Below, in pieces: positions 1,284 to 33,179 of a DNA stretch of 64,000 nucleotides. A program made the position numbers and the translations under genes. Origin of the DNA: Pseudomonas putida (lineage in GTDB: Bacteria > Pseudomonadota > Gammaproteobacteria > Pseudomonadales > Pseudomonadaceae); contig NZ_CP026115.2 of NCBI RefSeq assembly GCF_009883635.2, forward strand, positions 6,126,191 through 6,190,190, written 5' to 3'. The stretch's first letter is position 1. Each line of letters starts with the position of its first letter. The notes under the pieces were generated by a model. It did not search any database and had not been told where the DNA came from. It saw only the letters and a program-made list of their open reading frames with translations.

Positions 1284-1286
1284 CAC

Positions 1287-3031: not shown

Positions 3032-3099
3032 CGCAAGCCCCCTACCGACCCCGTCGTCGCCGTGACGCCGGGGTCTTTCAACGCACACAGGTAAACCAC

Positions 3100-15352: not shown

Positions 15353-15574
15353 TAATGCCCCCTCCTGATCGGGGTTGATGCAAAGATGGCGCTGGGCATC
15401 GCCCACCGACATGGGCGCCGCGCAAAAATCGGCAGGCGCTGTCGGCTGTTCTTTCGCTACGATTCGAGGTCCAATATCATCGTCTATGCATGCGTCCACG
15501 ACGAAAATACCTACGGTCCGCAGGCATTGCCTTCGGTAGTAGGTGCTGCACAACGTGCTGGATTGAATCTCGAT

Positions 15575-16330
15575 TCAGTAGCGATAGTCGGGCGCTACAC
15601 GGTCCAGCATGCGCAACAAGGCCGTCCAGGCCAAGGAAGTCGCCCCCGGATCTGTCAACTCGCCTTCTTTGAGCTCGCGCTGCGGCTCATTGAACTGCCG
15701 CTCGGTATGGGCGCAAATCTCATGGCCAGGCAGCAGCAACTGCCCCGCTTGCTGGGCCGCGAGCTGTATCTCACAGGCTTTTTCCAGGTAGTACATCCTC
15801 ATGAACGCTTCGGCCACACTGCGACCGCCAGCCAGCAGGCCGTGGTTGCGCAAGATCATTACATTCTTGTCTTGCAGGTCTGCGACCAGGCGTTGTTGCT
15901 CATCGAGGTCCAGGGCGATCCCTTCATAAGCGTGATAGGCGACCTTGCCATAGAACTCCATGGATATCTGGTTCACAGGCAGCAATCCGCACTCCAGGGC
16001 AGCAACCGCACAGCCGGCGCGCGTGTGGGTATGCAGCACGCATTGAAGATCGTGGCGTGCCCGGTGAATGGCACTGTGGATGACAAAACCGGCCGGGTTG
16101 ACAGCGTAAGGCGTATCGCCGACTGGCGCCCCATCCAGGTCGATCTTGACCAGGCTGGAGGCGGTGATTTCATCGAACATCAACCCGTATGGATTGATCA
16201 GGAAATGCTGCTCCGGGCCCGGTATGCGTACCGAGATATGGGTAAAGATCAAGTCGGTCATGCGCAAATGCGCGACTAGCCGGTAGCAGGCTGCCAATTC
16301 CTCGCGCAGCGTTTGCTCGGTTGGGGTCAT
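15575..16330 (-). CDS. Class II aldolase/adducin family protein
   Basis: 251 residues, normal for the family. Zinc-binding histidines appear in HTHTRAG (around residues 98-100) and in RNHGLLAGG (around 160), and the substrate-proximal FTHISVRIPG is present near residue 30. Relatives include fuculose- and ribulose-phosphate aldolases and several non-aldolase metal enzymes, so the reaction cannot be named. It is divergent from a GcvA-like LysR gene, which is the obvious candidate regulator. Confidence 0.85.
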   Translation of the reverse strand: MTPTEQTLREELAACYRLVAHLRMTDLIFTHISVRIPGPEQHFLINPYGLMFDEITASSLVKIDLDGAPVGDTPYAVNPAGFVIHSAIHRARHDLQCVLHTHTRAGCAVAALECGLLPVNQISMEFYGKVAYHAYEGIALDLDEQQRLVADLQDKNVMILRNHGLLAGGRSVAEAFMRMYYLEKACEIQLAAQQAGQLLLPGHEICAHTERQFNEPQRELKEGELTDPGATSLAWTALLRMLDRVAPDYRY

Positions 16331-16343
16331 GTCCTTCGCTCCA

Positions 16344-16364
16344 ATACTGATGTGAGCTCAGTAT
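16344..16364. promoter_or_regulatory. Dyad between the aldolase and LysR genes
   Basis: ATACTGA-N7-TCAGTAT, a perfect 7-bp inverted repeat 14 bp upstream of the aldolase ATG in the divergent promoter region. Its size and position fit a LysR-type operator of the adjacent regulator. Confidence 0.5.
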
Positions 16365-16457
16365 CGGTGAATTGAAACAAGCAACAATCGAATTAATTTC
16401 GCAGGTAATGTAGTGTTAGTTTCACCAATTGCTTACTTACACGCGATGCAGGGGCCT

Positions 16458-17342
16458 ATGCACTTCCCATCAATGACGGCGCTTCGCGCGCTGGATGCCG
16501 TGGCACGACTCGGAAGCATCTCCAGTGCAGCTGACGAACTCAGCCTCACACGGAGTGCGATCAGTCACCGCATCGGCACGCTTGAGGAGCAGCTGGGGTT
16601 TGCCCTGACCGAGCGCATTGGCCGTGGCATACGGCTGACGTTTCGAGGGGAGCAGTACGCCCGGGAGGTGCAGCAGATCCTCGAGCGCGTTCAACTGGCC
16701 GCAGCAGGTGAACAGGGGCAACAGATCGCGGGGCGCCTGTGCGTCAGTTGCAACACCGGTTTTGCCAGCGCCTGGTTGTGCCAGCACATCAACGCGTTCA
16801 TGACGCTCCATCCTCAGGTCCAGTTCCACCTGATCTCGCCACGCACGCCGGCCGATACCAGCGCGAGCGAAGCGGATATCTTCATTGCCTACGGCACGGG
16901 CGACTGGCCGAATCTGCAGGTAATGCCGCTGATGGACCTGCATTATTTTCCGGTATTGAGCCCTCAACTGCTCTACGCCAACGGCGGTCTCCGGCATATC
17001 GATGACCTGTCGAACTTCACCTTGCTGCACATGAACGACTACACGGATTGGCGGGTATGGCTGGGGGCAGCGGGCCGCAACAAAGTCGATGCTTCATCCG
17101 GCGTGTTGTTCTCCGACGCCCCCTGTGCACTGGCCGCCTGCCTGGCAGGCCAAGGCATCGCGATGGGCGACAACCTGCTGAGCAGCGACGCACTGAGGCG
17201 AGGCCTGCTGGTGAGCCCATTCGACATCAGTACGCGGGCAAACCGTTCGTACTTTCTGGTCTGCCATCCAGCCAAGGCGCAGCGCCCCATCGTCAAGGCA
17301 TTCAGCGACTGGCTGATCGAAACACTCGCCCTCACGACCTAG
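16458..17342 (+). CDS. LysR-family regulator (GcvA-like)
   Basis: 294 residues from ATG 16458, which follows an AGGGG ribosome site; ATG 16446 or GTG 16413 are alternatives. The N-terminus (FPSMTALRALDAVARLGSIS) and helix-turn-helix SAADELSLTRSAISHRI are LysR-type of the GcvA group. An effector-binding domain follows. It is divergent from the class II aldolase gene with a dyad between them, suggesting it controls that gene. Confidence 0.86.
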   Translation: MHFPSMTALRALDAVARLGSISSAADELSLTRSAISHRIGTLEEQLGFALTERIGRGIRLTFRGEQYAREVQQILERVQLAAAGEQGQQIAGRLCVSCNTGFASAWLCQHINAFMTLHPQVQFHLISPRTPADTSASEADIFIAYGTGDWPNLQVMPLMDLHYFPVLSPQLLYANGGLRHIDDLSNFTLLHMNDYTDWRVWLGAAGRNKVDASSGVLFSDAPCALAACLAGQGIAMGDNLLSSDALRRGLLVSPFDISTRANRSYFLVCHPAKAQRPIVKAFSDWLIETLALTT

Positions 17343-17380
17343 GGTCAGACTTGCTCATCTTCCAAACGTTGACGCGGTCC

Positions 17381-17424
17381 CTGTGGGAGCGGGCTTGCCC
17401 GCGAACACGGGCGAAGCCCGTGCC
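17381..17424. repeat. Pseudomonas REP element
   Basis: GTGGGAGCGGGCTTGCCCGCG followed by an imperfect second hairpin (ACGGGCGAAGCCCGT) is the classic REP palindrome of P. putida-group genomes. It sits in the gap between two converging genes, where such elements usually occur and can act as mRNA 3'-end structures. Confidence 0.85.
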
Positions 17425-17446
17425 ATCCACCGCGGTGTCTGCCCTA

Positions 17447-18343
17447 CTACCCCTGGCTGCGGTAGCTGCGCGGTGTCATGCCCAGCTGCTTCTTGAAGGT
17501 CTTGGAGAAATGCGCAGAATCGGCGAAGCCCCAGCGAGTGCCGATGTCGGTGATCGAGCGATGCCCATAGGCAGGGTTGCGCAAGTCCTGAGCAGCCTTG
17601 AGCAGCCGCTCGCGCAGGATGTAACGGCAGACGCTGTCGCCACTGGCTTCGAACAGGCGATACAGCTGGCGGCTGGAAATGCCCAGCTCGTCGGCCAGGG
17701 CCACCGGCGTCAGGCGCGGCGAGTCCAGGCGCTGCTGGATCAGCGACTGCACTTCGTGCAGATGCAGGCCGGGTGAACTGTCACGCGCCCGGTATTCCAG
17801 CACCGAGCCGAGCAGCCCCACCAACGCGGCCTGCAGGCCGTCACCGTCTTCCGGGCAGGCCCACTGCTCGAGTTCGCCTTCGGCCACCTGACGCACCATC
17901 GTCGCCAGCAGCTGGCCGCAGGCGCCGGCGGTGGACAGCTTGCCGAAACGGCTGGAATCGAGGTTTTTCAAGCGTTCACGGGGCAGGTGAATGGACACGT
18001 GGGAGAACAGCCCGCGGGGGGTCATTTTCATGGCCTGCGCCGAATCCAGCAGTGCCATGTCACCCTCGCGCAATTCCATCACCCGGTCGCCCAGCTCGAT
18101 GGACATTTCTCCGTGCTGCTGTAACACAAGGAAACAATGTGAATCGCCATCACGCCCCGCCTCGCGCCCCGAACGGGCGATCGCATGGGCATTGCTACGG
18201 ATGTGGGCGACCTGCGTGGTGCCCAGCAGCGAGGGGCGCAAATCGCCGATAAAAAGGCTCTGGCACTGGTCGTAGCGGGTTTCGAAGCGCCCGCATACCG
18301 CGTGGACACGCTCGTTCCAGACAGACATCGCTTGACCGTTCAT
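17447..18343 (-). CDS. AraC-family regulator (FeaR-like)
   Basis: 298 residues. The start at 18343 has GAGGTG upstream. The N-terminal ~180 residues form an AraC-binding-like cupin domain. The last ~100 hold two helix-turn-helix motifs, ALADELGISSRQLYRLFEA and ITDIGTRWGFADSAHFSKTF. The layout resembles FeaR, an activator of aromatic-amine oxidation genes. The gene is upstream of and in line with the PanE-like and MFS genes, near an amine-oxidation cluster, which fits such a role. Its target is inferred, not shown. Confidence 0.82.
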   Translation of the reverse strand: MNGQAMSVWNERVHAVCGRFETRYDQCQSLFIGDLRPSLLGTTQVAHIRSNAHAIARSGREAGRDGDSHCFLVLQQHGEMSIELGDRVMELREGDMALLDSAQAMKMTPRGLFSHVSIHLPRERLKNLDSSRFGKLSTAGACGQLLATMVRQVAEGELEQWACPEDGDGLQAALVGLLGSVLEYRARDSSPGLHLHEVQSLIQQRLDSPRLTPVALADELGISSRQLYRLFEASGDSVCRYILRERLLKAAQDLRNPAYGHRSITDIGTRWGFADSAHFSKTFKKQLGMTPRSYRSQG

Positions 18344-18543
18344 GAACCACCTCTATCGGGATCACGCGCCATATTAGTGCAATATTCACGTGATTTTGGG
18401 TAACAAAAAGACAGGTGAACGAAGCGCAAGCACATACCGCGCCACATTGCTCAGGGTGGTCTTCGAGCGGGCAGTCGTTTCGGATAGCGCATCAACATTG
18501 CCTGGGTCTTTAGAGCGTTCGACACAGCAGTTTCAGCGTCGGT

Positions 18544-18770
18544 GAGATCGAGTGCCGCACACGCGGCGCATCGCGAGCTGGCGCTCGCTCCTACGTTTGT
18601 TTCGGGCCAATAACGCCTGTGACGGACGCGCGCGAGCGCCTTGTGGTGCGGCGCGATATCGCGTCATACGCCAAAGCGTACGCGCGCGAATCCCACAGAA
18701 ATAACTGTCCCGAAACAAACGTAGGAGCGAGCGCCAGCTCGCGATGCGCCGCGCGGGCGGCGCTCGATCT
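18544..18770. repeat. Inverted-repeat element (~227 bp), copy 1
   Basis: Two arms of about 65-70 bp at 18544-18613 and 18708-18770 are near-perfect inverted repeats. Each contains the string CCTACGTTTGTTTCGGGCCA or its complement plus a GCGGCGCATCGCGAGC block. They flank a ~94-bp core with a GCGATATCGC centre. A second copy lies at 52641-52868. Comparison of the cores shows that the copies are in opposite orientation. No transposase is encoded. It looks like a non-autonomous MITE or REP doublet. The surrounding 18344-18857 gap otherwise has no gene. Confidence 0.85.
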
Positions 18771-18857
18771 GTGTATCACCTCAGAACACCAGGCAAGCAC
18801 CTGGTAGCCCTCACCCAATCTCCCGGCAAGCAAATCGCAGCCACTTTCCTCGGTGGT

Positions 18858-19802
18858 CTATCTGCCAGCGGCCTTCTCACCGCTGCGCTGACGCTGCGCC
18901 CGGCGCAACAACCTGTCGATGGCAGCCATGGACGGGGCTTGCACGCCCTGGCGCCGGGCATGGGCAAGCAACGCGCCGGACAGCGCGTCGATCTCCATGC
19001 GCCTGCCGTGCTCGAGGTCCTGGAGCATGGAAGGCTTGTGCCCGGCGTGCACGACGTACGCCTCCTCCACCGCCTGCACAACCCGTTGTTGATCCAGCGC
19101 CACGCCCACCGACGCGGCAATCGCGGCCGCCTCGCCAACCAACGCCAACGCCACCTCGCGGCCACGCGAGCAACGGCCTAGCTCGCCCACGCTCTCCCCT
19201 GTCAGGGCACACAGCGAGTTCAGGGCCGTATTGAAGGCGACCTTTTCCCAGATGCTCACCTCGATATCCGGGTCTTCGATGCAGCACATGCCGCCACGGC
19301 GCAAGCCATCGATCAGAACCCGCAACGGCCCGGCGTAATCCGGCCCAGGCAACAGCCCGCGCAAGCGCACCTCGCCACCGCCGCAGCTGCGTACGCTGCC
19401 GGGTGCCAGCACATCGGCCGGGTAAAGGGTCATGCCGATTGCCAGGCAAGGGTCAGCCACGTACTCGCGCAGCACCGGCACGCTGTCCAGGCCGTTCTGC
19501 AACGTCAGCACCAGGGTCTGCTGGCCAAGCAGGTGCCGGCACGCCTGGATGGCCTGGCGGGTGTGGTGGCTCTTGGTCAACATCAGCAAGGCATCGACCT
19601 CGCCCTGCAACTGTTCGGCGCGTGCCACCCGAGGCCAGTACACACGCACGCCCTGCTCGTCCTCCAGGCGCAGGCCATGGATACGCAGGGTGTCGAGCAA
19701 GCGCTCATCGACATCCACCAGCGTCACCTCGGTACCGGCATCGATCAACCGGGCGGCAAACAGGCTGCCCATTGCCCCTGCCCCGATCACGGCAATCTTC
19801 AT
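18858..19802 (-). CDS. 2-dehydropantoate 2-reductase family (PanE/ApbA) protein
   Basis: 314 residues. It begins with an NADP-binding Rossmann motif, KIAVIGAGAMGSLFAARL. The conserved catalytic-lysine region EKVAFNTALNSLCALTG is near residues 188-204, and the substrate-binding C-terminal helical domain contains SMLQDLEHGRRMEID. The family reduces ketopantoate or related 2-oxo acids. Its location after an AraC gene and near amine-oxidation genes suggests a catabolic ketoreductase, but a pantothenate role cannot be excluded from sequence. It lies 85 bp from the MFS gene, after that gene's terminator. Confidence 0.85.
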   Translation of the reverse strand: MKIAVIGAGAMGSLFAARLIDAGTEVTLVDVDERLLDTLRIHGLRLEDEQGVRVYWPRVARAEQLQGEVDALLMLTKSHHTRQAIQACRHLLGQQTLVLTLQNGLDSVPVLREYVADPCLAIGMTLYPADVLAPGSVRSCGGGEVRLRGLLPGPDYAGPLRVLIDGLRRGGMCCIEDPDIEVSIWEKVAFNTALNSLCALTGESVGELGRCSRGREVALALVGEAAAIAASVGVALDQQRVVQAVEEAYVVHAGHKPSMLQDLEHGRRMEIDALSGALLAHARRQGVQAPSMAAIDRLLRRAQRQRSGEKAAGR

Positions 19803-19833
19803 GTTGGGTTTCGTCCTTGTTGTCTACGCCATG

Positions 19834-19864
19834 AAAAAAGCTCGCCAGGTCATCCCCGGCGAGC
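19834..19864 (-). terminator. Terminator of the MFS gene
   Basis: GCTCGCC / GGCGAGC stem (7 bp) with an 11-nt loop, followed on the minus strand by a run of six T. It is 24 bp beyond the MFS stop and separates that gene from the PanE-like gene. Confidence 0.82.
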
Positions 19865-19887
19865 CTCATCTGGATATGCGACTGCCA

Positions 19888-21099
19888 TCACAGCTTCGGC
19901 AAGGTCACCGCGTCGCCCATCGGCTCGCGTTTGCCCGCCTGCTGCGAACGCAGCACCGCAGCACCGTAGATCGCCAGCACGCTGATCGAGCAGGCACCGG
20001 AGAACAGCAGCACCGCCGTGTAGCCATAGGCTTCGATCAGCAGGCCACCGACCGCCGGCCCCACCGCCGCACCGACCGACAGGCACAGTGCCCCCAGGGC
20101 CACCAAGCGGCCCGACAGGTCAAACTCGGCCATCACGCCGAAGGTGTAGGCCAGCACGAAGCTGATCGAGAACAGGAAGCACATCACTCCGGCCACGTAG
20201 GTGGTCAGCGAGTCGAACTGTGCCAGCAGCACCAGGCCCGCTACCTCGGCCGCGATGATCACCGCCACCGGCAGGAAGCGCCCGGCCTTGAGGCCGACCG
20301 ACGAGGCAATGAAGCCGCCGCCCGCATTGATGATGAAGCCCAGCGCCAGCACCGAGCCGATGGTGTCCGAAGACAGGCCGCTCTTCTTGCCCATCAGTTC
20401 AAGGAAGGCCCACACCGACATGATGCCGGTCAGGAACACCAGGCTGGCAAGCAGGCTCAGCCAGGCGATGGTACGGCTGTGGCGGCACACCACCGGCGCC
20501 CCGCCAGCACGCGCCTCCAGTTGCCGTGCGCTGCGGCTTGGCAGCCATGGCAACGGGACCACGCCCATCAGCAGCATGCTGATGACCAGCGTCACCAGCA
20601 TGCCCTGGAAGCCCCACAGGGGCGCCACCGCGACCGGCAGCACGATCAGCAGCAAGGCGCCGGGCACGGTCTCCATGCCCAGCTTGAAGCCGAAGGCCCG
20701 CTCAGGTTGCGCGCTGTCGCCGAAAATGGTCATCGCCAGCGCATACAGCGCACCGGTGCCGGCACCGGCCAGGGCCATGAGCAGCATCAGCGTCTCGTAC
20801 GTGGGGTTGCCCAGCATGCCCGCCAGCGCAGCCACCACCAGCAGCGAGGACAAGGTGGAAATCACCCGCCAGCTCAGGCGCTGGATCCACAGCAGCGAGG
20901 CCAGGCCGAGCACCCCGAAACCGAGGTTCATGGCCATGGCCAGGCTGCCCAGTTGCTGTTCGCCATAACCGAACTGCTCGGCCAGGGCGCCGAACAGCAC
21001 CGGCAACACATTGAGCAGCAAGGCCCCACCAGCGGAAACCAGGCCGGCGCAGATGTACACGGAGGTCTTGTCAATCGGATTGGATGTTGTTGTTTTCAT
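19888..21099 (-). CDS. MFS transporter
   Basis: 403 residues with about 12 hydrophobic segments and a basic loop near the middle (RSARQLEARAGG). It begins MKTTTSNPIDKTSVYICAGL, a short cytoplasmic N-terminus before TM1. It belongs to the major facilitator superfamily without a clear substrate signature. It is divergent from the cyclodeaminase-like / RidA / FAD-oxidase genes, so uptake of the substrate of that pathway is a reasonable inference. Confidence 0.83.
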   Translation of the reverse strand: MKTTTSNPIDKTSVYICAGLVSAGGALLLNVLPVLFGALAEQFGYGEQQLGSLAMAMNLGFGVLGLASLLWIQRLSWRVISTLSSLLVVAALAGMLGNPTYETLMLLMALAGAGTGALYALAMTIFGDSAQPERAFGFKLGMETVPGALLLIVLPVAVAPLWGFQGMLVTLVISMLLMGVVPLPWLPSRSARQLEARAGGAPVVCRHSRTIAWLSLLASLVFLTGIMSVWAFLELMGKKSGLSSDTIGSVLALGFIINAGGGFIASSVGLKAGRFLPVAVIIAAEVAGLVLLAQFDSLTTYVAGVMCFLFSISFVLAYTFGVMAEFDLSGRLVALGALCLSVGAAVGPAVGGLLIEAYGYTAVLLFSGACSISVLAIYGAAVLRSQQAGKREPMGDAVTLPKL

Positions 21100-21406
21100 G
21101 GATTGATCCTGAATTTGGATGTGCTGAGCTCAACGCCTTGTGACCGCCACAGTGTGCAACGCCCAAAGGCCGGCGGCATGTACCCCATTGCCGGGCTTTT
21201 GGTCATGGCTGCCAGCGTTGGTGCGACCCGAAATCCGCTGAAATCGCGCAAACCAGCAGGCTAGACAGCGCGGACCGACATGGCGGCAGGTACCCCGTCA
21301 TTCCTGACCAATTCGGGATAGCCGCCCGCCCTGGCGGCTTCCTAACATCGGCCCCGTCGGCAGCAGCCTTCGCTGCCGGCCCTCTTCCTCCGCCCCGAGA
21401 TGAGCC
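21100..21406. promoter_or_regulatory. Divergent promoter region, MFS / amine-oxidation genes
   Basis: 307 bp holding promoters for the leftward MFS gene and the rightward cyclodeaminase-like gene. A short CCGCCCGCCCTGGCGG hairpin lies near 21323. I cannot name an operator. Confidence 0.4.
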
Positions 21407-22546
21407 ATGACTACAACTACAAAAATCGACTTTCTCTACCTGTCCGAGCAGGACATGATCCGCGCCGGTGTCACCGACATGCTGGCCTGCGTGAACACCA
21501 TGGAGCAGATGTTCGCCCTGCTCCATCACGGCGACTACCGCATGGCCGGGCCGAACAGCGATTCCCACGGCGCGATGATCACCTTCCCCAAGGACTCGCC
21601 CTTCCCCAACATGCCCAAGCCCACGGCCGACCGCCGCATGATGGCGATGCCTGCCTACCTGGGCGGCGACTTCTGCACCGCCGGGGTCAAGTGGTACGGT
21701 TCCAACATCGCCAACCGCGAAAAGGGCCTGCCGCGCTCGATCCTGATGTTCACCCTCAATGACCCGGACACCGGCGCCCCCTTGGCGCACATGTCGGCCA
21801 ACCTGCTGTCGGCCTACCGGACCGGCGCCATCCCGGGTGTCGGCGCACGCCACCTGGCCCGCCGCGACTCGCGGGTGATCGGCCTGCTGGGCCCCGGCGT
21901 GATGGGCAAGACCACCGTGGCCGCGTTCATGGCCGTGTGCCCGCAGGTCGACACGCTCAAGCTCAAGGGCCGCGGCCAGAAGAGCCTGGACGACTTCATC
22001 AGCTGGGTAAGCGACACCTACCCGCAGATCACCACCATCGAAGTGGTCGACAGCATCGAAGAGGTGGTACGCGGTTCGGACCTGGTGACCTACTGCACCT
22101 CCGGCGAAACCGGTGACCCGTCCACCTACCCGCTGGTAAAGCGCGAATGGGTCAAGCCAGGCGCGTTTCTCGCCATGCCCGCCGGCTGCAGCATCGACGC
22201 CGGCATGGAGCAGGCCGACGTGCGCAAGGTGGTCGACAACACCGGCCTGTACGAAGCCTGGTTCGAAGAGCTGCCCAAGCCTGCGCACAACCATGTGCCG
22301 CTAGTGGGCGTGCGCTTCATGGACATGATCGCCGAAGGCAGCCTGCCGGCCGAGCAGCTGGAAGACATCGGCAAGATCGTCGCAGGCGTTGCCCCCGGCC
22401 GCTGCAACGACGAGGAGATCATCATCATGTCGGTCGGCGGCATGCCGGTCGAGGACGTGGCCTGGGGTACGGTGGTGTACCGCCAGGCGCTGGAGCGCGG
22501 CGTCGGCGTACGCCTCAACCTGTGGGAAAGCCCGGCCCTGAGCTGA
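21407..22546 (+). CDS. Ornithine cyclodeaminase / mu-crystallin family oxidoreductase
   Basis: 379 residues. The N-terminal substrate domain (LYLSEQDMIRAGVTDM) is followed by a Rossmann half with GLLGPGVMGKTTVAAFM (about residues 160-176). This is the OCD/mu-crystallin fold, which binds NAD(P) and reduces or forms cyclic and open imines. It is longer than classical ornithine cyclodeaminase (about 350). It is first in a rightward operon with RidA and an FAD amine/amino-acid oxidase. The combination suggests imine chemistry during amine or amino-acid breakdown. The exact substrate is unknown. Confidence 0.85.
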   Translation: MTTTTKIDFLYLSEQDMIRAGVTDMLACVNTMEQMFALLHHGDYRMAGPNSDSHGAMITFPKDSPFPNMPKPTADRRMMAMPAYLGGDFCTAGVKWYGSNIANREKGLPRSILMFTLNDPDTGAPLAHMSANLLSAYRTGAIPGVGARHLARRDSRVIGLLGPGVMGKTTVAAFMAVCPQVDTLKLKGRGQKSLDDFISWVSDTYPQITTIEVVDSIEEVVRGSDLVTYCTSGETGDPSTYPLVKREWVKPGAFLAMPAGCSIDAGMEQADVRKVVDNTGLYEAWFEELPKPAHNHVPLVGVRFMDMIAEGSLPAEQLEDIGKIVAGVAPGRCNDEEIIIMSVGGMPVEDVAWGTVVYRQALERGVGVRLNLWESPALS

Positions 22547-22575
22547 TTCATCCCTCCAACCCCAAGGACAATACC

Positions 22576-22998
22576 ATGCTGCAGATCACCAAACTCAAGA
22601 CCGGATCGAAGTACGAGACCCTGGGCAGCTATTCGCGCCTGGTGGCGGTGGACGACTGGATCTTCGTTTCCAACACCGCCGGGCGTAACCCAGCGACCGG
22701 CGAAATCCCCGAGGACCTCGAGGCCCAGACCCGCCAGGTGTTCGCCAATATCGAAGCGGCGCTGAATGCCGTGGATGCGACCCTGGCCGACGTGGTCTGC
22801 TCGCGGGTGTTCATCCAGAGGCCTGAGGATGTCGCCAGCGTGATGACCATCGTCGGCGAAGTGTTTCGCGGCATCGACCCGGCGAGCACGGTCACCTGCC
22901 CGCCATTGGGCGCGACGGTCTACCGGGTGGAGCTGGAGGTCACCGCCTACCGCGGTGCTTCCCGCGCCACCACCCAGCTGATCGACCTGTCGCGCTAG
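22576..22998 (+). CDS. RidA/YjgF family imine deaminase
   Basis: 140 residues from ATG 22576, preceded by AAGGA. The family block CSRVFIQRPEDV and the conserved end CPPLGATVYRVELEVTAYR are present. RidA-type proteins hydrolyse reactive imines and enamines released by amino-acid oxidases and PLP enzymes. The gene lies 29 bp after the cyclodeaminase-like gene and 23 bp before an FAD oxidase, so it probably hydrolyses that oxidase's imine product. Some members are stable decoys without the catalytic Arg; here an Arg is present in SRVFIQ. Confidence 0.85.
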   Translation: MLQITKLKTGSKYETLGSYSRLVAVDDWIFVSNTAGRNPATGEIPEDLEAQTRQVFANIEAALNAVDATLADVVCSRVFIQRPEDVASVMTIVGEVFRGIDPASTVTCPPLGATVYRVELEVTAYRGASRATTQLIDLSR

Positions 22999-23021
22999 CC
23001 CGACCTCGAGGAGAACCGTCC

Positions 23022-24317
23022 ATGTCCCCTGTCATCGCGCCGGTGCACTGCGCAAACACGCCACCCAGCGCCACCACCGTGGTCATCATCGGCGGCGGAA
23101 TCGTCGGCCTGACCGCTGCCTTGACCCTCGCCGAGCGCAACATCCCGGTGGTGGTGCTGGAGAAAGGCCGCATCGCCGGCGAGCAGTCATCGCGCAACCT
23201 CGGCTGGGTGCGCAAGACCAGCCGCCACCGCGAGGACCTGCCCCTGGCCCTGGCCGCAGACCGGTTGTGGGCGCAAATGCCCGCCCGGGTCGGACGCGAG
23301 GTCGGCTACCGACAGGCGGGCATCCTGTTCGCCGCCCGTGAGCTTGGGCAGATGGCGATGCACGAGGCCTGGCTGAAATCGGTAGACGGTCTGCCGGTCG
23401 GTTCACGCCTGCTGAGCAACGCCGAAATCGCCCAGCGCGTTCCAGGTGGGCAAGCCACCTGGGCCGGAGGCATTTTCACCGAAAGCGACGGCCGTGCCGA
23501 GCCGACCCTGGCCAGCAGTGCCATCGCCAAGGCCGCCATGGCCCGTGGCGCGGTGATCGTGGAGAACTGCGCGGTGCGCAGCGTAACCACCGCCGCCGGG
23601 CGCATCGACGGCGTGGTGACCGAACACGGCGAGATCCGCTGCGAGCAGGTGCTGCTGGCCGGCGGTTTATGGTCGCGGCGCCTGCTGGGCAACCACGGGG
23701 TCGCCTTGCCGACCTTGCCGCTGAACTGCTCGGTGCTGCGCACGGCGGCCATGGAAGGCCCAACCGACATTGCCGTGGGCGGCCCGGACTTCTCGTTCCG
23801 CAAGCATATGGACGGTGGCTTCATCATCACGCAACGGGGTGCCCTCGATGCCCACCTGACCCTCGATCATGCCTTGCTCGGGCGACGCTACCTGCCGCAG
23901 TTCCGCGCTCAGCGGGGCTTGCTGCGGGTGTCGTTCGGCAAGCCGTTTTTCAAGGACCTGGCACTGGCGCGGCGCTGGTCGCCTGCTTCGGTGTCCCCGT
24001 TCGAGCGCATCCGCACCCAGGACCCTGCCGCCAACCCGGCCTTGAACCAGGAAGCGCTGGACAACCTCAGGGCCGCCTGGCCGGTGTTCAAGCAGGCGCG
24101 CATCGAGCAGGCGTGGGCCGGCACCATCGACGTGACACCTGACTCACTGCCAGTGATCGGGCCGGTTCAGCAACTGCCGGGGATGGTGCTGGCGACCGGC
24201 TTCTCCGGCCACGGCTTCGGTACCTCGCCCGCGGCCGGGCAACTGGCGGCGGATCTGATCGATGGCAGCCACCCGCTGGTCGACCCGTCCCCTTATCGCC
24301 TGGATCGCTTCGCCTGA
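23022..24317 (+). CDS. FAD-dependent amine/amino-acid oxidoreductase (DAO family)
   Basis: 431 residues. A dinucleotide-binding motif VVIIGGGIVGLTAALTLAE occurs at residues ~24-42, followed by the DAO-family segment GEQSSRNLGWVRKT. The C-terminal FAD signature GMVLATGFSGHGFGTSPAAG is near residue 390. It should oxidise a C-N bond of an amine or D-amino acid to an imine. It forms an operon with RidA and the cyclodeaminase-like gene. Its last 25 bp overlap the 3' end of the convergent AraC gene. Confidence 0.86.
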   Translation: MSPVIAPVHCANTPPSATTVVIIGGGIVGLTAALTLAERNIPVVVLEKGRIAGEQSSRNLGWVRKTSRHREDLPLALAADRLWAQMPARVGREVGYRQAGILFAARELGQMAMHEAWLKSVDGLPVGSRLLSNAEIAQRVPGGQATWAGGIFTESDGRAEPTLASSAIAKAAMARGAVIVENCAVRSVTTAAGRIDGVVTEHGEIRCEQVLLAGGLWSRRLLGNHGVALPTLPLNCSVLRTAAMEGPTDIAVGGPDFSFRKHMDGGFIITQRGALDAHLTLDHALLGRRYLPQFRAQRGLLRVSFGKPFFKDLALARRWSPASVSPFERIRTQDPAANPALNQEALDNLRAAWPVFKQARIEQAWAGTIDVTPDSLPVIGPVQQLPGMVLATGFSGHGFGTSPAAGQLAADLIDGSHPLVDPSPYRLDRFA

Positions 24318-25255
24318 ACGACGCTGTCCTGGCGAGCGGTGTGTGAAGGCAGTTCACCGAACAGCGCGCGGTAGGCGCCAGAGAAATGCCCAAGGTGGGT
24401 AAAGCCCAGGTCGCTGGCCACCCGGGCAACGGTGAACTGCTCGGCGGCGGTGCACTGCAGCCGTTGCCGCACGGCATTCAGGCGCACCGCACGCAGGTAC
24501 TCGACCGGGCTCAGTCCGGTGACCCCGAGGAAACTGCGCTGCAAGGTGCTGCGGCTGACATCCAGGCGCTCGCAGATCTGCAGCACCGACAGCGGCTCGT
24601 CCAGGCAATCCAGGGCCATCTGGTGCGCCTGGCGGACCAGATAGGCGCTGACCGCAACATTCCCCCCTCGCCCCGCGCCACCTTGGCTGACCTGGTCCAG
24701 CAGCACCAGCATGCACTCCAGCAGCAAGTCTTCGAGCTGCGCTTCCACCAGTGCTTCGCCCTGCAACGCCGCATCTATCAGCCCCTGCAGTTGCAGGCGT
24801 ATCGCACTTAAAAAAGCCGGGCTGACATTCAACCGAGTGGTCCGGTTCAACGCACGCAGTTCCTGGGCGCTGAACTCGCGCTCGGCCAGTCGCTCCAGAC
24901 GATCGGCGTCGACACTGACCGCCAGCAGGTCCATGCCCTCGGGCGCATGGACGAAAAACTCCTGACCACTGTGAAGAAGCGTGACATCCGCGCTACCGAC
25001 GCTGCTGCCCTGGAACACCCCGGCACCCGCGCTGCCAGCGGGTAGCGCCAGGCAAAAGCGCCGCGCCGGCGCCGCGCCGTGCTGGACCACACGCTTGTCC
25101 AGGCATTCACGAAAAATCTGGAAGCGCTCGGCGGTGAGGTGAGTGAGCTCGGTGTGTGCACTGCCGGCGCTGATCTGGTCGTAGGTCTGCTGCCAGCCGA
25201 GGATCGCGCTGGCATGGGTGTTGACGTCGTTGAAGCGGTGGCGTTGGGCGTGCAT
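24293..25255 (-). CDS. AraC-family transcriptional regulator
   Basis: 320 residues from ATG 25255; an upstream GTG at 25309 would add 18 residues. The C-terminal DNA-binding domain has two helix-turn-helices, LSVLQICERLDVSRSTLQRSF and ARVASDLGFTHLGHFSGAYR. The N-terminal part is a cupin-like sensor. It is divergent from the Tat-exported FAD oxidoreductase and convergent with the FAD amine oxidase, so it may control either. The 185-bp promoter region between it and the Tat substrate gene contains a long palindrome. Confidence 0.83.
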   Translation of the reverse strand: MHAQRHRFNDVNTHASAILGWQQTYDQISAGSAHTELTHLTAERFQIFRECLDKRVVQHGAAPARRFCLALPAGSAGAGVFQGSSVGSADVTLLHSGQEFFVHAPEGMDLLAVSVDADRLERLAEREFSAQELRALNRTTRLNVSPAFLSAIRLQLQGLIDAALQGEALVEAQLEDLLLECMLVLLDQVSQGGAGRGGNVAVSAYLVRQAHQMALDCLDEPLSVLQICERLDVSRSTLQRSFLGVTGLSPVEYLRAVRLNAVRQRLQCTAAEQFTVARVASDLGFTHLGHFSGAYRALFGELPSHTARQDSVVQAKRSRR

Positions 25256-25349
25256 GGCGTGACTGTTACCTCGATTGCATGCGCCGTATGAAAGCAAGGA
25301 ATGGGCCACTCGGTCGCAGAGTCAGATTGACGCACCCTCAAACTCGGCC

Positions 25350-27147: not shown

Positions 27148-27402
27148 ATGTTCGGTATCAGTTTCAGCGAGCTGCTGCTGGTCGGCCTGGTGGCCTTGCT
27201 GGTGCTCGGCCCCGAGCGCCTGCCCGGTGCCGCGCGTACTGCGGGGCTGTGGATCGGGCGGCTGAAACGCAGCTTCAACGCGATCAAGCACGAAGTCGAA
27301 CGCGAGATCGCTGCCAGCGACATCCACCACCCGCCGCACAACACGCATAGCCTGCATCCGCCTGCCACGCCCGAACCGCCTCAACCGCCGCGAGCCCCAT
27401 GA
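27148..27402 (+). CDS. tatB: TatB translocase subunit (short)
   Basis: 84 residues with the TatB-type N-terminus [20 protein letters not shown] followed by [17 protein letters not shown], then an amphipathic helix and a Pro/His-rich tail. The E residue early in the membrane helix (SFSELLL) and the GPERLP hinge mark it as TatB rather than TatA. It is much shorter than the usual TatB of about 140 residues. Its last codons overlap the tatC start by 4 bp. Confidence 0.88.
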
Positions 27403-28151
27403 GCGAAAGAATCGAACACGACCAGCCCATGCCGCTGGTCTCGCACCTGACCGAACTGCGTACCCGCCTGCTGCGCTGCGTGGCGGTCATCTTCCTGATC
27501 TTTGCCGGGCTGTTCTCCTTCGCCCAGCAGATCTACACCCTGGTCTCGGCGCCGTTGCGCGACCATCTGCCGGCCAACGCGACGATGATCGCCACCGACG
27601 TGGCCTCACCGTTCCTCACGCCATTCAAACTGACCATGATCGTTTCGCTGTTCCTGGCGATCCCGTTCATCCTCCAGCAGATCTGGGGCTTCATCGCGCC
27701 GGGGCTGTATCGCCAGGAAAAACGCATCGCCATTCCGCTGCTGGTGTCGAGCATCCTGCTGTTCTACGCCGGCATGGCCTTCGCCTATTTCCTGGTATTC
27801 CCGCTGATGTTCAGCTTCTTCGCTGCCGCCACTCCGCAAGGCGTGGCGATGATGACCGACATCGCCAACTACCTCGACTTCGTCATGACGCTGTTCTTCG
27901 CCTTCGGCGTTGCCTTCGAGATCCCGGTGGCCGTGGTGCTGCTGGTATGGATCGGCGTGGTCGACGTGAAGTATCTGAAGAAGGTCCGCCCGTACGTGGT
28001 CATCGGCTGCTTCGTGGTCGGCATGATCCTCACCCCGCCGGACATCTTCTCGCAAACGCTGCTCGCCGTGCCCATGTGGCTGTTGTTCGAGGTGGGCGTG
28101 CTGTGTGGCGGTCTGGTCCGCAAGCAGCCTCAGGATATTTGTACAAAATAA
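27399..28151 (+). CDS. tatC: TatC translocase subunit
   Basis: 250 residues with six hydrophobic segments. The N-terminal receptor region reads [16 protein letters not shown], where the conserved HLTELR motif and Glu bind the twin-arginine signal. The [18 protein letters not shown] and [16 protein letters not shown] segments match the family. It is the twin-arginine receptor of the complex. The start overlaps tatB. Its 3' end overlaps the first of two TGTACA-type boxes controlling the next operon. Confidence 0.93.
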
Positions 28152-28163
28152 TTTTGTTGTATA
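28140..28163. promoter_or_regulatory. LitR/PplR-type box 1
   Basis: TGTACA-N12-TGTATA. This is the complement of the published LitR-class motif T(G/A)TACA-N12-TGTACA of P. putida light-responsive promoters. It starts inside the last codons of tatC, 63-86 bp upstream of the next gene. Confidence 0.7.
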
Positions 28164-28191
28164 GATTTCCCCGCTGACCTGCACTATACCT

Positions 28192-28215
28192 TGTACAGAT
28201 ATTGGATTTTGTACA
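28192..28215. promoter_or_regulatory. LitR/PplR-type box 2
   Basis: TGTACA-N12-TGTACA, an exact match to the LitR-class consensus, ending 10 bp before the ATG at 28226 and centred 52 bp (about five turns) from box 1. Binding here would cover the promoter or transcription start and should block transcription in the dark. Confidence 0.72.
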
Positions 28216-28225
28216 GGTATTGTGC

Positions 28226-28648
28226 ATGTCTACCTACCTGCAGCATTTCACCGAACGCTTTGCCACGCTGGGTCCGCACAATCTCGAGCTAGTCGGCGAC
28301 TTGTACAGCGAAGATGTCAGCTTTCGCGACCCGCTCCATCACGTCAGCGGGCTCACAGCCTTGCGTGCCTATTTCGCGCAGCTGTACGCCAACGTTGCCG
28401 AGGTCCGCTACACCTTCGAGGACCTTGACGAGCCACAGCCAGGCCACGGCTACATCCGCTGGACCTTGCACTATCGCCACCCGCGCCTGGCCGGCGGCCA
28501 GCCGATCAGCCTGCAAGGCTGCAGCCACCTGCGCTGGCGTGGACGGGTCTACTTGCATCAGGACTACTTCGACGCCGGCGCCTTGCTCTATGAACATGTT
28601 CCAGTCCTGGGCGGCGCAATTCGCTGGCTCAAGGGCAGGTTGGCATGA
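28226..28648 (+). CDS. NTF2/SnoaL-like protein
   Basis: 140 residues from the ATG at 28226. The pattern LVGDLYSEDVSFRDPLHHVSG is the helix-strand opening of the NTF2-like (SnoaL) fold, with a later ISLQGCSHLRWRGRVYLHQDYFDAG strand pair. Such small alpha+beta barrels are isomerases, cyclases or lipid/ligand binders. It is the first gene of the operon behind two LitR-type boxes and overlaps the next start by 4 bp. Specific function unknown. Confidence 0.85.
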   Translation: MSTYLQHFTERFATLGPHNLELVGDLYSEDVSFRDPLHHVSGLTALRAYFAQLYANVAEVRYTFEDLDEPQPGHGYIRWTLHYRHPRLAGGQPISLQGCSHLRWRGRVYLHQDYFDAGALLYEHVPVLGGAIRWLKGRLA

Positions 28649-29397
28649 GCCGCTGCTGGCTCACCGGTGCCAGCAGCGGCATCGGCGCGCAACTGGCACA
28701 GCGCCTGCTGGAGCAAGGCCACCAGGTAGCGCTTGGGGCTCGCCAGGCAGAGCGCCTGGCAGACCTGGCTGCACGCTTTGCAGGCCAGGTGCTGCTGGCC
28801 GTCGGTGATGTCGACCAGCCTGAGCAGGTGGCACGCATCGCCGCGCAGATCGAGCAGGCCTGGGGCTCGCTGGACCTGGTGATCCTCAATGCCGGCACCT
28901 GCGAATACCTGGAGCCTGGGCAGTTCGACCCGGCGCTGGTCGAGCGGGTCATCCACACCAACCTGATCGGCACCAGCCATTGCCTGGCCGCCGCCCTGCC
29001 CTTGCTGCGTCGCGGCCAACGCCCGCACCTGGTGGTGATGGGCAGTTCGGTCAGCTGGTTTGCCTTGCCACGGGCCGGTGCCTATGGCGCGTCCAAGGCC
29101 GCGCTGCGCTACCTGGTCGAGTCGCTGCGCCTGGACCTGGCCAGCGAGGGCATTGATGTCACCCTGGTCAGCCCCGGTTTCGTCGACACCCCGCTGACGC
29201 GCCGCAACGACTTCCCCATGCCCCAGTTGTGGAGCGCCGAGCGCGCCGCCAAATACATTGCCGCACGCCTGCCCCGTCGCCCACTGGAGATCACCTTCCC
29301 CGCCAGCTTCACCCTGTTGCTGCGCCTGCTCGGCGCACTGCCGGCACGCTGGCGCCTGATGCTGGGCCGGCGCCTGGCGCGCCAGCCCCAGGGTTGA
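28645..29397 (+). CDS. Short-chain dehydrogenase/reductase
   Basis: 250 residues. The cofactor motif TGASSGIGAQLAQRL is at residues 7-21, NAG at about 90, and the catalytic YGASKAALR near residue 149. The C-terminal stretch after residue 200 is hydrophobic and arginine-rich, which may associate with membranes. Member of the conserved NTF2-SDR-FAD-DUF1365-CFA operon linked to singlet-oxygen and light responses in several proteobacteria. Substrate unknown. Confidence 0.88.
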   Translation: MSRCWLTGASSGIGAQLAQRLLEQGHQVALGARQAERLADLAARFAGQVLLAVGDVDQPEQVARIAAQIEQAWGSLDLVILNAGTCEYLEPGQFDPALVERVIHTNLIGTSHCLAAALPLLRRGQRPHLVVMGSSVSWFALPRAGAYGASKAALRYLVESLRLDLASEGIDVTLVSPGFVDTPLTRRNDFPMPQLWSAERAAKYIAARLPRRPLEITFPASFTLLLRLLGALPARWRLMLGRRLARQPQG

Positions 29398-29400
29398 ACC

Positions 29401-30648
29401 ATGCGCATCGCCATCATCGGCAGCGGCATCGCCGGCCTCACCTGTACCCACCTGCTGTCACGCCGGCATGATGTCACGGTATTCGAAGCGGCAGACCGGG
29501 TCGGCGGGCACACCCATACCGTCGATGTTCACTGGCGTGGCCAGCACTTTACCGTGGACACCGGTTTCATCGTCTTCAACGACTGGACCTACCCGCATTT
29601 CATCCGCCTGCTGGAACACCTGGGCGTGGCCTCGCGGATCACCGAGATGAGCTTTTCGGTGCACGACCCGCGTACGGGCTTTGAATACAACGGGCACAAC
29701 CTGCGCAGCCTGTTCGCCCAGCGCCGCAACCTGTTGTCGCCAGGCTTCTGGGGCATGTTGCGCGATGTGTTGCGTTTCAACCGCCAGTCACTGGCCGACC
29801 TCGACCAGCAACGTATCGATGGCGCGACCACCCTGGGCGATTACTTGCACGACAATCGTTACGGTCAGCGCTTCATCGAGCATTACATCGTGCCCATGGG
29901 CTCGGCCATCTGGTCGATGTCACGGGCCGACATGCTGCATTTTCCATTGCAGTTCTTCGTGCGTTTCTGCCGCAACCACGGCCTGCTGTCGGTCAACCAG
30001 CGCCCGCAATGGCGGGTGATCGAGGGCGGTTCACGCAGCTACCTGGCACCGCTGTGCCGGCCCTTTGCCGACCGCATCCGGCTGAACTGCCCGGTGCAAC
30101 GGGTGAACCGCGACGATGAAGGCGTGACCGTGACCTGGGCAGGCGGCAGCGAACGCTTCGACAAGGTGGTCTTCGCCTGCCATAGCGACCAGGTCCTGGC
30201 GCTGCTAGGCAGCCCCAGCGAGCAGGAACAGGCGATCCTCGGCGCCATCCGCTATGCCAGCAACGACGTGGTGCTGCACACCGACACCCGCCTGCTGCCC
30301 CGCCGGCGCAGGGCCTGGGCCAGCTGGAACTACCGCCTGGATGGCAGCGAACAGGCCCCCGCTGCGCTCACCTACGACATGAACATCCTGCAGGGCATCG
30401 AGGCACCGGTCACCTTCTGCGTCAGCCTCAATCAGACGGCGTTGGTGGACCCGGCGCAGATACTCGCCCGCTTCGAGTATGCGCACCCGCAGTACAGCCT
30501 CGCCGCCGTCGCCGCCCAGGCCCGTCAGGTCGAATTGCAAGGCCCGCTGCACAGCTATTACTGCGGTGCCTACTGGGCCAACGGCTTTCACGAAGACGGC
30601 GTGCTCAGTGCGCTGAACGTCGCCCGGTACTTTGGAGAGCAGCTGTGA
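29401..30648 (+). CDS. FAD-dependent amine-oxidase/desaturase-like flavoprotein
   Basis: 415 residues. FAD-binding motif IAIIGSGIAGLTCTHLL at residues 3-19, followed by the second signature EAADRVGGHTHTVDVHW. The C-terminus ends HSYYCGAYWANGFHEDGVLSA, a FAD-contact block of this 'NAD/FAD-binding protein' family. Neighbouring CFA-type methyltransferase and DUF1365 genes suggest a lipid substrate, perhaps a fatty-acyl desaturation or oxidation. Overlaps the next gene by 4 bp. Confidence 0.86.
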   Translation: MRIAIIGSGIAGLTCTHLLSRRHDVTVFEAADRVGGHTHTVDVHWRGQHFTVDTGFIVFNDWTYPHFIRLLEHLGVASRITEMSFSVHDPRTGFEYNGHNLRSLFAQRRNLLSPGFWGMLRDVLRFNRQSLADLDQQRIDGATTLGDYLHDNRYGQRFIEHYIVPMGSAIWSMSRADMLHFPLQFFVRFCRNHGLLSVNQRPQWRVIEGGSRSYLAPLCRPFADRIRLNCPVQRVNRDDEGVTVTWAGGSERFDKVVFACHSDQVLALLGSPSEQEQAILGAIRYASNDVVLHTDTRLLPRRRRAWASWNYRLDGSEQAPAALTYDMNILQGIEAPVTFCVSLNQTALVDPAQILARFEYAHPQYSLAAVAAQARQVELQGPLHSYYCGAYWANGFHEDGVLSALNVARYFGEQL

Positions 30649-31457
30649 ACAGCAGCCTGTGCCACGGCTGGGTCAGCCACCGGCGCCTGACGCCCAGGCC
30701 CCACGCGTTCCGCTACCGCATCGGCCTGTTCTACCTGGACCTCGACGAGCTGCCCCGCCTGCCGAGCCTCTCTCGTTGGCTCGGGCGCTCGCGCCTGGCG
30801 CCGTTGTGCTGGCGCGAAACCGACTACCTGCCCGCGTTGACCCGCCAAGGCATGCCCCTGATCGAGGCCGCGCGCCTGCTGGTTGGCCAAGCCACCGGGC
30901 AGGTGCCTGAGGGTGCCGTGCACCTGCTGACGCAACCGCGCTGCTGGGGGCTGTCGTTCAACCCCGTGAGCGTCTACTTCTGCCACGACCGCCAAGGGCA
31001 AGTCGCGGCCGTACTGCTGGAGGTGCGCAACACCCCCTGGCGCGAGCGCTTCCACTACGTGTTGCCGGTACAGGGCGACCTGACCCAGCCATTTGCCGTG
31101 GCCAAGGCCTTCCACGTCTCGCCGTTCATGCCCATGGACATGGACTACCGGCTGCGCTTCACCGTCGATGCGCAACGCGTGCACGTGCACATGGAAAACT
31201 GGCGTGCCGGGCACCCGGTGTTCGCAGCGGACCTCGCCGTGCAACGCCGGCCGCTCGACCGCGCCAGCCTGCATCGGCACCTGCTGGCCTTTCCTTGGAT
31301 GAGCTTGCGCACCGTCAGCGGCATCTACTGGCAAGCCCTGCGCCTGCTGCTCAAACGTACCCCCGTGCACGACCACACCGCCAGCCAGCACGACCTGGCG
31401 CTTGGCCAAGCCATCCGCGAGGAACCCGACCATGTCCGAACCGATCTTGAGCGTTAG
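30645..31457 (+). CDS. DUF1365 family protein
   Basis: 270 residues. The family hallmarks are present: GWVSHRRLTPRPHAFRYRIGLFYLDLDEL at the N-terminus (residues 6-34), the central FNPVSVYFCHD (near 105) and KAFHVSPFMPMDMDYRL (near 155). DUF1365 genes almost always stand between the FAD protein and the CFA-like methyltransferase, as here. The biochemical role is unresolved; a lipid-modification accessory role is inferred from the neighbourhood. The last 26 bp overlap the CFA-like gene. Confidence 0.9.
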   Translation: MNSSLCHGWVSHRRLTPRPHAFRYRIGLFYLDLDELPRLPSLSRWLGRSRLAPLCWRETDYLPALTRQGMPLIEAARLLVGQATGQVPEGAVHLLTQPRCWGLSFNPVSVYFCHDRQGQVAAVLLEVRNTPWRERFHYVLPVQGDLTQPFAVAKAFHVSPFMPMDMDYRLRFTVDAQRVHVHMENWRAGHPVFAADLAVQRRPLDRASLHRHLLAFPWMSLRTVSGIYWQALRLLLKRTPVHDHTASQHDLALGQAIREEPDHVRTDLER

Positions 31458-32691
31458 CAAATCCGCCGGCATCACGCCGCTGCTCGGCAGCCTGGCCCGG
31501 CGTGCGGTGCTGGCGCAACTGCGCCAGCTGAGCCGTGGCCATCTGCGCCTGATCAGCCAGGGCCAGCAATGGACCTTCGGCGACGTCGCCAGCCCGCTGT
31601 ACGCGGAAGTGGAAATTGTTGACGAAGCCGCCTGGGGCCTGGTGGCCGGCAATGGCTCGATCGGCGCGGGCGAAGGCTACATCCACGGCTACTGGCGCAG
31701 CCCCGACCTGGCCGCGGTGACTCGGCTGTTCGTCGCCAACCTCGACGTGCTGGACGCCATGGAAGGCGGCCTGGCCCGCCTGGCGCGCCCGGCCCTGCGC
31801 CTGCTGCACCGCTTCAACCGCAACAGCCGGCGCGGTGCGCGGCGCAACATCCTGGCCCACTACGACCTGGGCAATGCGCTGTTCGAGCGGCTGCTCGATC
31901 CGACCATGATGTATTCTGCCGCTCAGTTCGACAGTGCCGAGCAGAGCCTGGAACAGGCCCAGTCGAACAAGCTCCGGCAGATCTGCCAGAAGCTCGAACT
32001 CAAGCCCGGCGAACACCTGCTGGAAATCGGCAGCGGCTGGGGCAGCCTGGCCATCCACGCCGCCTTGGAGCATGGCTGCCGGGTCACCACCACCACACTC
32101 TCCGCCGCGCAGCACGCCCACACCTTGCAGCGGGTCAAGGCGCTGGGCCTGGAGCGGTTGGTCACCGTGCTGCACGAGGACTACCGCGACCTGCACGGGC
32201 GCTTCGACAAGCTGGTGTCCATCGAAATGATCGAGGCCGTCGGCCATCGCTACCTGCCCACCTACTTCCGCCAGTGCGCCGCGCTGCTCAAGGACGACGG
32301 CCTGATGCTGCTGCAGGCCATCACCATTCGCGATCAGCGCTACGCCCAGGCCCAACGCTCGGTGGACTTCATCCAGCGCTACATCTTCCCCGGCGGCGCC
32401 CTGCCCTCGCTGAGCGTCCTGCTGAACACCGCCAGCCGCCAGACTGCGCTGAACCTGGTGCACCTCGAAGATTTCGGCCAGGACTATGCGCGCACCCTGC
32501 GCCATTGGCGTGACAACCTGCGCCACTCGCGCACGGAGCTGGCCAGGCTCGGTTACGACGACACCTTCCAGCGCCTGTGGGAGTTCTACCTGTGTTATTG
32601 CCAGGGCGGCTTCGAGGAACGGACCATCGGCGTGGCCCAGATGCTGTGGGCCGGGCCCGAGGCGCGGCGGGCGCCGCTACCGGGTGCCTGA
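31432..32691 (+). CDS. Cyclopropane-fatty-acyl-phospholipid synthase family methyltransferase
   Basis: 419 residues from the ATG at 31432, with GAGGAA 8 nt upstream. The SAM-binding motif LEIGSGWGSLAIHAA is near residue 197 and the family motif VSIEMIEAVGHRYLP near 262. The lead segment ARRNILAHYDLGNALFERLLDPTMMYSAA is also typical. It methylates an unsaturated fatty acyl chain in membrane phospholipid. Because of its operon mates and LitR-type boxes it is more likely a light/singlet-oxygen-induced enzyme, such as a UfaM-like furan fatty acid methylase, than the stationary-phase CFA synthase. Confidence 0.85.
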   Translation: MSEPILSVSKSAGITPLLGSLARRAVLAQLRQLSRGHLRLISQGQQWTFGDVASPLYAEVEIVDEAAWGLVAGNGSIGAGEGYIHGYWRSPDLAAVTRLFVANLDVLDAMEGGLARLARPALRLLHRFNRNSRRGARRNILAHYDLGNALFERLLDPTMMYSAAQFDSAEQSLEQAQSNKLRQICQKLELKPGEHLLEIGSGWGSLAIHAALEHGCRVTTTTLSAAQHAHTLQRVKALGLERLVTVLHEDYRDLHGRFDKLVSIEMIEAVGHRYLPTYFRQCAALLKDDGLMLLQAITIRDQRYAQAQRSVDFIQRYIFPGGALPSLSVLLNTASRQTALNLVHLEDFGQDYARTLRHWRDNLRHSRTELARLGYDDTFQRLWEFYLCYCQGGFEERTIGVAQMLWAGPEARRAPLPGA

Positions 32692-32693
32692 AC

Positions 32694-33179
32694 GTGGTCC
32701 GCCGTGGCTGGCTGCTGGGCAACGCGCTGTGGTTGCAGGCTGGCTGGTGGCTGTGTGTACTGGGGGCACACAGGCCCTGGCTGTTACTGGTGGTGATGGT
32801 CGGCCTGCTGCTGCACCTCTGGCTGAGCCCGCGCGGTGAGTTGCGCGTGCTGCTCTGGGTAGCGGCAGCCGGCTGCCTGCTGGACAGCACCCTGGGCATG
32901 CTCGGTGTGTTCAGTTTCAACCCGTGGCCGTTGCCGCTTTGGCTGGCACTGCTGTGGCTGGTGTTGGCCAGCGGCATGCGTCATAGCTTGGCAGGGCTCG
33001 GCCAACCCGCGTGGCTCCCGGTGCTGCTGGGCCTGCTTGGTGGCCCGTTGGCCTACCTGGCCGGCGCCCGACTGGCCGAGGTCGAATTGCCAATGGGGCA
33101 GCTGAAAACCGCGCTGATCCTGGCACCTGTGTGGGCATTGGCCCTGCCGCAGGCCTTGCGCTTCGCCGCACGAAGCTGA
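32694..33179 (+). CDS. DUF2878 membrane protein
   Basis: 161 residues, nearly all hydrophobic, with five or six membrane segments. It starts at GTG 32694, 2 bp after the CFA-like stop (residues MVRRGWLLGNALWLQAGWW). The central AGCLLDSTLGMLGVFSF fits the DUF2878 family, a usual last member of this operon type. Function unknown; probably an inner-membrane partner of the lipid-modifying enzymes. Confidence 0.8.
   Translation: MVRRGWLLGNALWLQAGWWLCVLGAHRPWLLLVVMVGLLLHLWLSPRGELRVLLWVAAAGCLLDSTLGMLGVFSFNPWPLPLWLALLWLVLASGMRHSLAGLGQPAWLPVLLGLLGGPLAYLAGARLAEVELPMGQLKTALILAPVWALALPQALRFAARS

Follow-up and report, generated by a model that had tools for sequence, protein, structure and literature searches.

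The window, by which we mean the whole stretch of 64,000 nucleotides of Pseudomonas putida DNA that was analysed, contains six genes that overlap or nearly so, a tatC copy directly upstream of them and, at the junction of the two, a pair of tandem boxes (Table 1). UfaD-, DUF1365 UfaO- and UfaM-type genes stand together in this operon. These names were given by domains and gene order, and on this footing the six-gene operon probably makes furan fatty acids.

Table 1. Features around the operon head (positions of the window).
Feature	Position	Strand	Sequence	Basis
tatC copy, directly upstream of operon	27399..28151	+		3' end fused to cassette edge
Box 1 (Site 1), TGTACA-N12-TGTATA	28140..28163	.	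TGTACAAAATAATTTTGTTGTATA	exact consensus match
Candidate promoter core between boxes; hexamers uncertain	28162..28190	+	TAGaTTT (from 28162), TATAcC (28185-28190)	predicted from conservation in 15 loci
Box 2 (Site 2), TGTACA-N12-TGTACA, directly ahead of first gene	28192..28215	.	TGTACAGATATTGGATTTTGTACA	exact consensus match
Putative weak ribosome-binding site at end of box 2	28215..28217	+	AGG	predicted from sequence
SnoaL_2/NTF2-like protein, first gene	28226..28648	+		Pfam PF12680, E 5.2e-15
Short-chain dehydrogenase (SDR)	28645..29397	+		Pfam PF00106
FAD amine-oxidase-type protein, probable UfaD	29401..30648	+		Pfam PF01593; precedes DUF1365 gene as in R. palustris
DUF1365 protein, probable UfaO	30645..31457	+		Pfam PF07103, E 4.2e-78
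CMAS-type methyltransferase, probable UfaM	31435..32691	+		Pfam PF02353, E 4.9e-87
DUF2878 protein	about 32694..33179 (start codon inferred)	+		Pfam PF11086

UfaO of Rhodobacter contains DUF1365, and the R. palustris locus numbers run ufaD-ufaO-ufaM (PMC7380195). The ufa genes of Rhodobacter sphaeroides and Rhodopseudomonas palustris are thus like those of the window in combining a DUF1365 UfaO with a methyltransferase UfaM, in R. palustris also in the same order, but the window operon adds the SnoaL/NTF2, SDR and DUF2878 genes. In R. sphaeroides, product accumulation goes up on deletion of chrR, that is, the regulator is a different one (PMC7380195).

Two exact boxes ahead of the operon

Both boxes match T(G/A)TACA-N12-TGTA(C/T)A, the PplR1 consensus as printed in PMC9758184, with no mismatch, as expected of class II LitR operators. 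From the start of box 1 to that of box 2 is 52 bp, and between box 2 and the ATG (28226) there are 10 bases (28216-28225). The earlier note's description of two tandem boxes of the published motif, with this spacing and this distance to the first gene, was therefore correct. Such a fixed tandem arrangement with the second site near the ATG recurs in relatives, at 46-52 bp.

A search of the window for TRTACA-N12-TGTAYA with at most one mismatch returned 3 matches where 0.06 were expected, and only boxes 1 and 2 were exact. When positions 28130-28225 were shuffled 20,000 times with dinucleotides preserved, one exact box arose in 3 shuffles and two boxes in none, so that local AT-richness does not explain the pair. 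A chance origin of the boxes was rejected on the excess of window matches over expectation and on this shuffle test. The third match in the window (50316-50339) has one mismatch, lies within a coding-like frame and is probably due to chance.

The 6.19-Mb genome contains TGTACA-N12-TGTAYA at four places, and the reversed control at none. Two of the four are those of the window, one lies ahead of an amine-oxidase-type gene beside rudS, and one is in a coding frame at 2,681,836. Allowing the TRTACA form and up to one mismatch gave 26 places genome-wide versus 7 for the reversed control, and single near-matches therefore carry little weight by themselves. Besides the rudS promoter and the window, 16 of the 19 other one-mismatch places fall in coding-like frames. 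We claim no further regulon members among these 19: L163 and L164 are inside long ORFs, and L029 is not inside one, yet has no clear gene start. Since TGTACA is a simple palindrome and near-matches are mostly found in coding-like frames, the boxes could be imagined to be chance sequences, relics or the sites of another regulator that recognizes TGTACA palindromes. This is nevertheless very unlikely, given that no shuffle produced two sites, that spacing and position are conserved in relatives and that a class II LitR leaves a footprint on such sites in a relative (PMC9758184).

Candidate regulators and photoreceptor elsewhere in the genome

None of the eight MerR_1 matches of the genome falls in the window, which bears out the earlier note's statement that no LitR gene is present there. 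Two of the eight have the long form of LitR (class II LitR-type). One is a PplR1-like LitR at 1,718,300-1,719,196, within rudS-pplR1-phrB, and ahead of this group of genes are tandem boxes with one mismatch each, 50 bp apart (L019:9251-9324). The other, a PmlR2/PplR3-like LitR, starts near 3,513,390 (L020:8388-9458), and a short-LOV gene ends about 0.7 kb past it on the opposite strand. The genome, for which the earlier note had named the lack of any LitR homologue as evidence against light control, thus encodes two, one of them near a short-LOV gene. The exact box described above, ahead of the amine-oxidase-type gene beside rudS, is at L019:8174-8197.

The short-LOV protein is the only one found in this genome, where class II LitR and short LOV consequently occur together. 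It is 93% identical to what we take to be the sequence of PpSB1-LOV, keeps the NCRFLQ-type cysteine motif as DCRFLQ and matches a solved structure of the short-LOV type. The remaining 5 matches of the LOV search have 22-30% identity and lie in much longer frames. Proximity of the two genes is common in relatives: of the 17 relatives of the second LitR that were fetched, 16 had a short LOV within the 3.5 kb taken, and so did all three loci of a third LitR type inside the stretch taken.

A different light sensor would be a B12-dependent class I (CarH-type) LitR controlling the operon with adenosylcobalamin. Both LitRs match CarH over the HTH and the helical bundle, and the second has a His aligned to a CarH His that we take to be the cobalt ligand; 8 of its 17 fetched relatives keep the His and the other 9 have Arg. 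On the other hand, the tryptophan and EH of the CarH motif are, by eye, absent from the second LitR. Moreover, a Pfam scan found no B12-binding domain above threshold in either protein, the PplR1-like LitR having a sub-threshold B12-binding_2 match only, and neither therefore qualifies as a class I LitR. A B12 effect is hence not expected, contrary to what the earlier note implied by suggesting a comparison with and without vitamin B12; the discussion of PMC9758184 likewise describes B12 as dispensable in P. putida. Control of the CarH type, extremely unlikely on these grounds, was rejected on the domains and on this statement. By analogy with the published systems, the sensor would be the LOV protein and not vitamin B12.

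PmlR2, a class II LitR of P. mendocina, protects one broad stretch, from -54 to +37 on one strand and from -45 to +32 on the other. This stretch has two sites, Site 1 overlapping the -35 and Site 2 between the start point and the ATG, and replacement of both TGTACA of Site 2 abolishes binding (PMC9758184). LOV lit with blue light binds LitR and inhibits its DNA binding; in vitro, LitR represses and lit LOV relieves the repression. These results come from footprint, SPR and in vitro transcription experiments, and in light ufaM goes up 25-33-fold and phrB 27-33-fold (PMC9758184).

The operon head of the window resembles P6650 of Pseudomonas mendocina NBRC 14162 (PmlR2/PmSB-LOV) in having two TGTACA-N12-TGTACA-type sites, one near the core and one ahead of the start codon, with ufaM among the targets; in each case the genome also encodes a short LOV along with a class II LitR (PMC9758184). 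However, the P6650 boxes head a single long operon that includes pmlR1 and phrB besides the ufa genes (PMC9758184), whereas the ufa genes of the window are a separate unit with its own boxes and no LitR beside it. The right half of box 1 is here TGTATA, and the TTGACT / TATGAT core is missing. The window also shares its consensus with the PplR1-PplR3 regulon of Pseudomonas putida KT2440, in which ufaM and phrB are light-inducible (PMC9758184). Three PplR and two short LOVs are present in KT2440 (PMC9758184), as against the two LitR-type proteins and the single short LOV found in the genome of the window.

We infer, with a probability of about 0.88, that class II LitR repressors, encoded at other places on the chromosome, use the boxes as operators; they would be bound in the dark, released through LOV in blue light and would in this way switch the six-gene operon. 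This is supported by the agreement of motif, tandem layout, target genes and regulators in trans with the class II LitR system of P. mendocina and P. putida. With operators, LitRs and a blue-light sensor in one genome, the window operon appears to be a further case of a light switch already known. The candidate repressors are the PplR1-like LitR beside rudS/phrB and the PmlR2/PplR3-like LitR near the short-LOV gene. LitR bound to the two sites in the dark would cover the intervening promoter as well as the message start, with the furan-fatty-acid operon switched off. In blue light, the LOV protein would form a cysteine adduct, bind LitR and remove it from the DNA, and the six genes would then be transcribed. 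Binding, repression and release by light are carried over here from the relatives; on this analogy, there is good support for the predicted light induction and for control in trans. What we see in the sequence itself are the sites and their conservation, together with the regulator, receptor and target genes. The mechanism is thus a known one with a new member, in which the LOV-LitR blue-light switch would extend to a separately promoted furan-fatty-acid operon that has no adjoining regulator gene.

Boxes at related operon heads

To follow the boxes in relatives, we used a genus set of 119 genomes, 86 of which have a match to the first gene (90 matches). The first 61 of these were taken (the window's own locus and 60 stretches from 59 genomes) and 29 were left out. 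All 61 heads have at least one box within 300 bp, and 51 have two. In 45 heads the ufa genes come after phrB as part of a long run, whose first gene is rudS (pplR1 in one locus) and which has the boxes ahead of it. Two boxes with at most one mismatch each precede 41 of these 45 runs, spaced by 46 (2 loci), 49 (4), 50 (32) or 51 bp (3). Stand-alone ufa operons make up 16 of the 61, and 10 of the 16 have two boxes, at a spacing of 51 (7) or 52 bp (3). A box is also present at the neighbouring amine-oxidase gene in 41 of 42 cases, 10 of them exact.

A second set, which overlaps the 61 heads, consisted of the best 80 of 403 confirmed relatives, in named genomes. Among these best 80, at least one box was found in every case and two in 62, ahead of 16 of the 17 long operons and of 46 of the 63 separate ones. 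Inspection by eye showed that in several single-box cases a second pair is spaced by 11 or 13 and is hence outside the pattern's count. In 33 of the 63 separate operons, the 2.5 kb upstream contain a minus-strand LitR gene and a plus-strand LOV gene.

Across the genus set, 116 of the 119 genomes have an exact box, and the reversed control, counted by eye, is matched in 18; a LitR match was obtained in 118. A strict link between box and LitR was sought in this set and not found: only one (G093) of the three genomes without an exact box is also without LitR, and the other two, G010 and G080, possess it.

A conserved unit behind varied neighbours

The promoter form of the window occurs in 15 loci, namely the window and 14 named loci (L185-L198), with the common end TGTACAGGTATTG(T/C)GCATG. 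The boxes are 52 bp apart in this form, L196 with its degenerate box 1 being the exception, and GTATTG[TC]GCATG follows box 2 in all 15. Conservation runs from a few bases ahead of box 1 to the ATG and no farther upstream. Depending on the length compared, the upstream DNA of the 15 loci belongs to six to eight different neighbour groups: 8 within 500 bp, 6 within 1.5 kb (blastn and tblastx, the membership of the six differing between the two programs) and 7 within 2.5 kb (blastn only). Downstream DNA varies as well, with 9 groups among the 14 loci that have sequence there.

We found no consensus sigma-70 promoter in 27900-28400. The rudS promoters have TTGACY and NATGMT 16 apart in 39 of 45 cases, and this pair is absent from the window's form. 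Instead, the conservation of TGTATAGaTTT and aCcTGCACTATAcC in the 15 loci suggests that the core lies between the boxes, though its hexamers are uncertain. The lack of a consensus sigma-70 core, the absence of the TTGACY -35 and the fact that the presence of LitR is not always matched by boxes are points against the LitR-LOV model.

What is added here is a conserved unit that starts at box 1 in 15 loci behind varied upstream neighbours, a natural deletion series. As nothing upstream of box 1 is common to the 15 loci, and the boxes and intervening sequence are kept, the series would mark a minimal light promoter, in which the contributions of each site and of the individual LitRs become directly testable.

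In the window, the upstream neighbour is a tatC gene, of which the genome has three; it is 94% identical to another of them over residues 1-244. DNA similarity to the other tatC loci compared stops at or before 28129, which places the junction at about 28130-28138. The 3' end of tatC has been replaced, its last codons and stop being supplied by the cassette edge and box 1, and the first 12 bases of box 1 are the last three codons and stop of the copy. The same junction occurs in Pseudomonas sp. CC120222-01a (L185), which speaks against an assembly error.

Because the tatC copy runs into box 1, read-through could bypass control. The operon might then be transcribed mostly by read-through from the tatC copy as a result of the rearrangement, and light control would be weak or lost despite intact boxes. 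Consistent with this, the tatC ORF ends inside box 1 and leaves no space for a terminator in between, the sole terminator-like match in 27900-28400 lies inside tatC (shuffles average 0.6), and a consensus promoter is lacking. Yet the 15 loci, for all their differing upstream DNA, have retained the two boxes together with the intervening sequence, which suggests a promoter in use, and we consider predominant read-through very unlikely. We tentatively propose that operator pair and ufa operon may form a self-contained light-gated cassette that has moved repeatedly within the P. putida group and has box 1 as its left edge. Here this edge would be fused into the end of tatC, and LitR may also act as a roadblock to tat read-through. 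Such a relocated operator-operon cassette is the least expected part of the analysis.

Pseudomonas putida KH-21-134 and Pseudomonas sp. MN1F have counterparts of window positions 1-3812 and 28139-33169 only 36-37 bp apart; in the window these two stretches are separated by 24.3 kb (3813-28138). In KH-21-134, a counterpart of window 15567-25334 is found farther upstream and is bordered by a tatC remnant.
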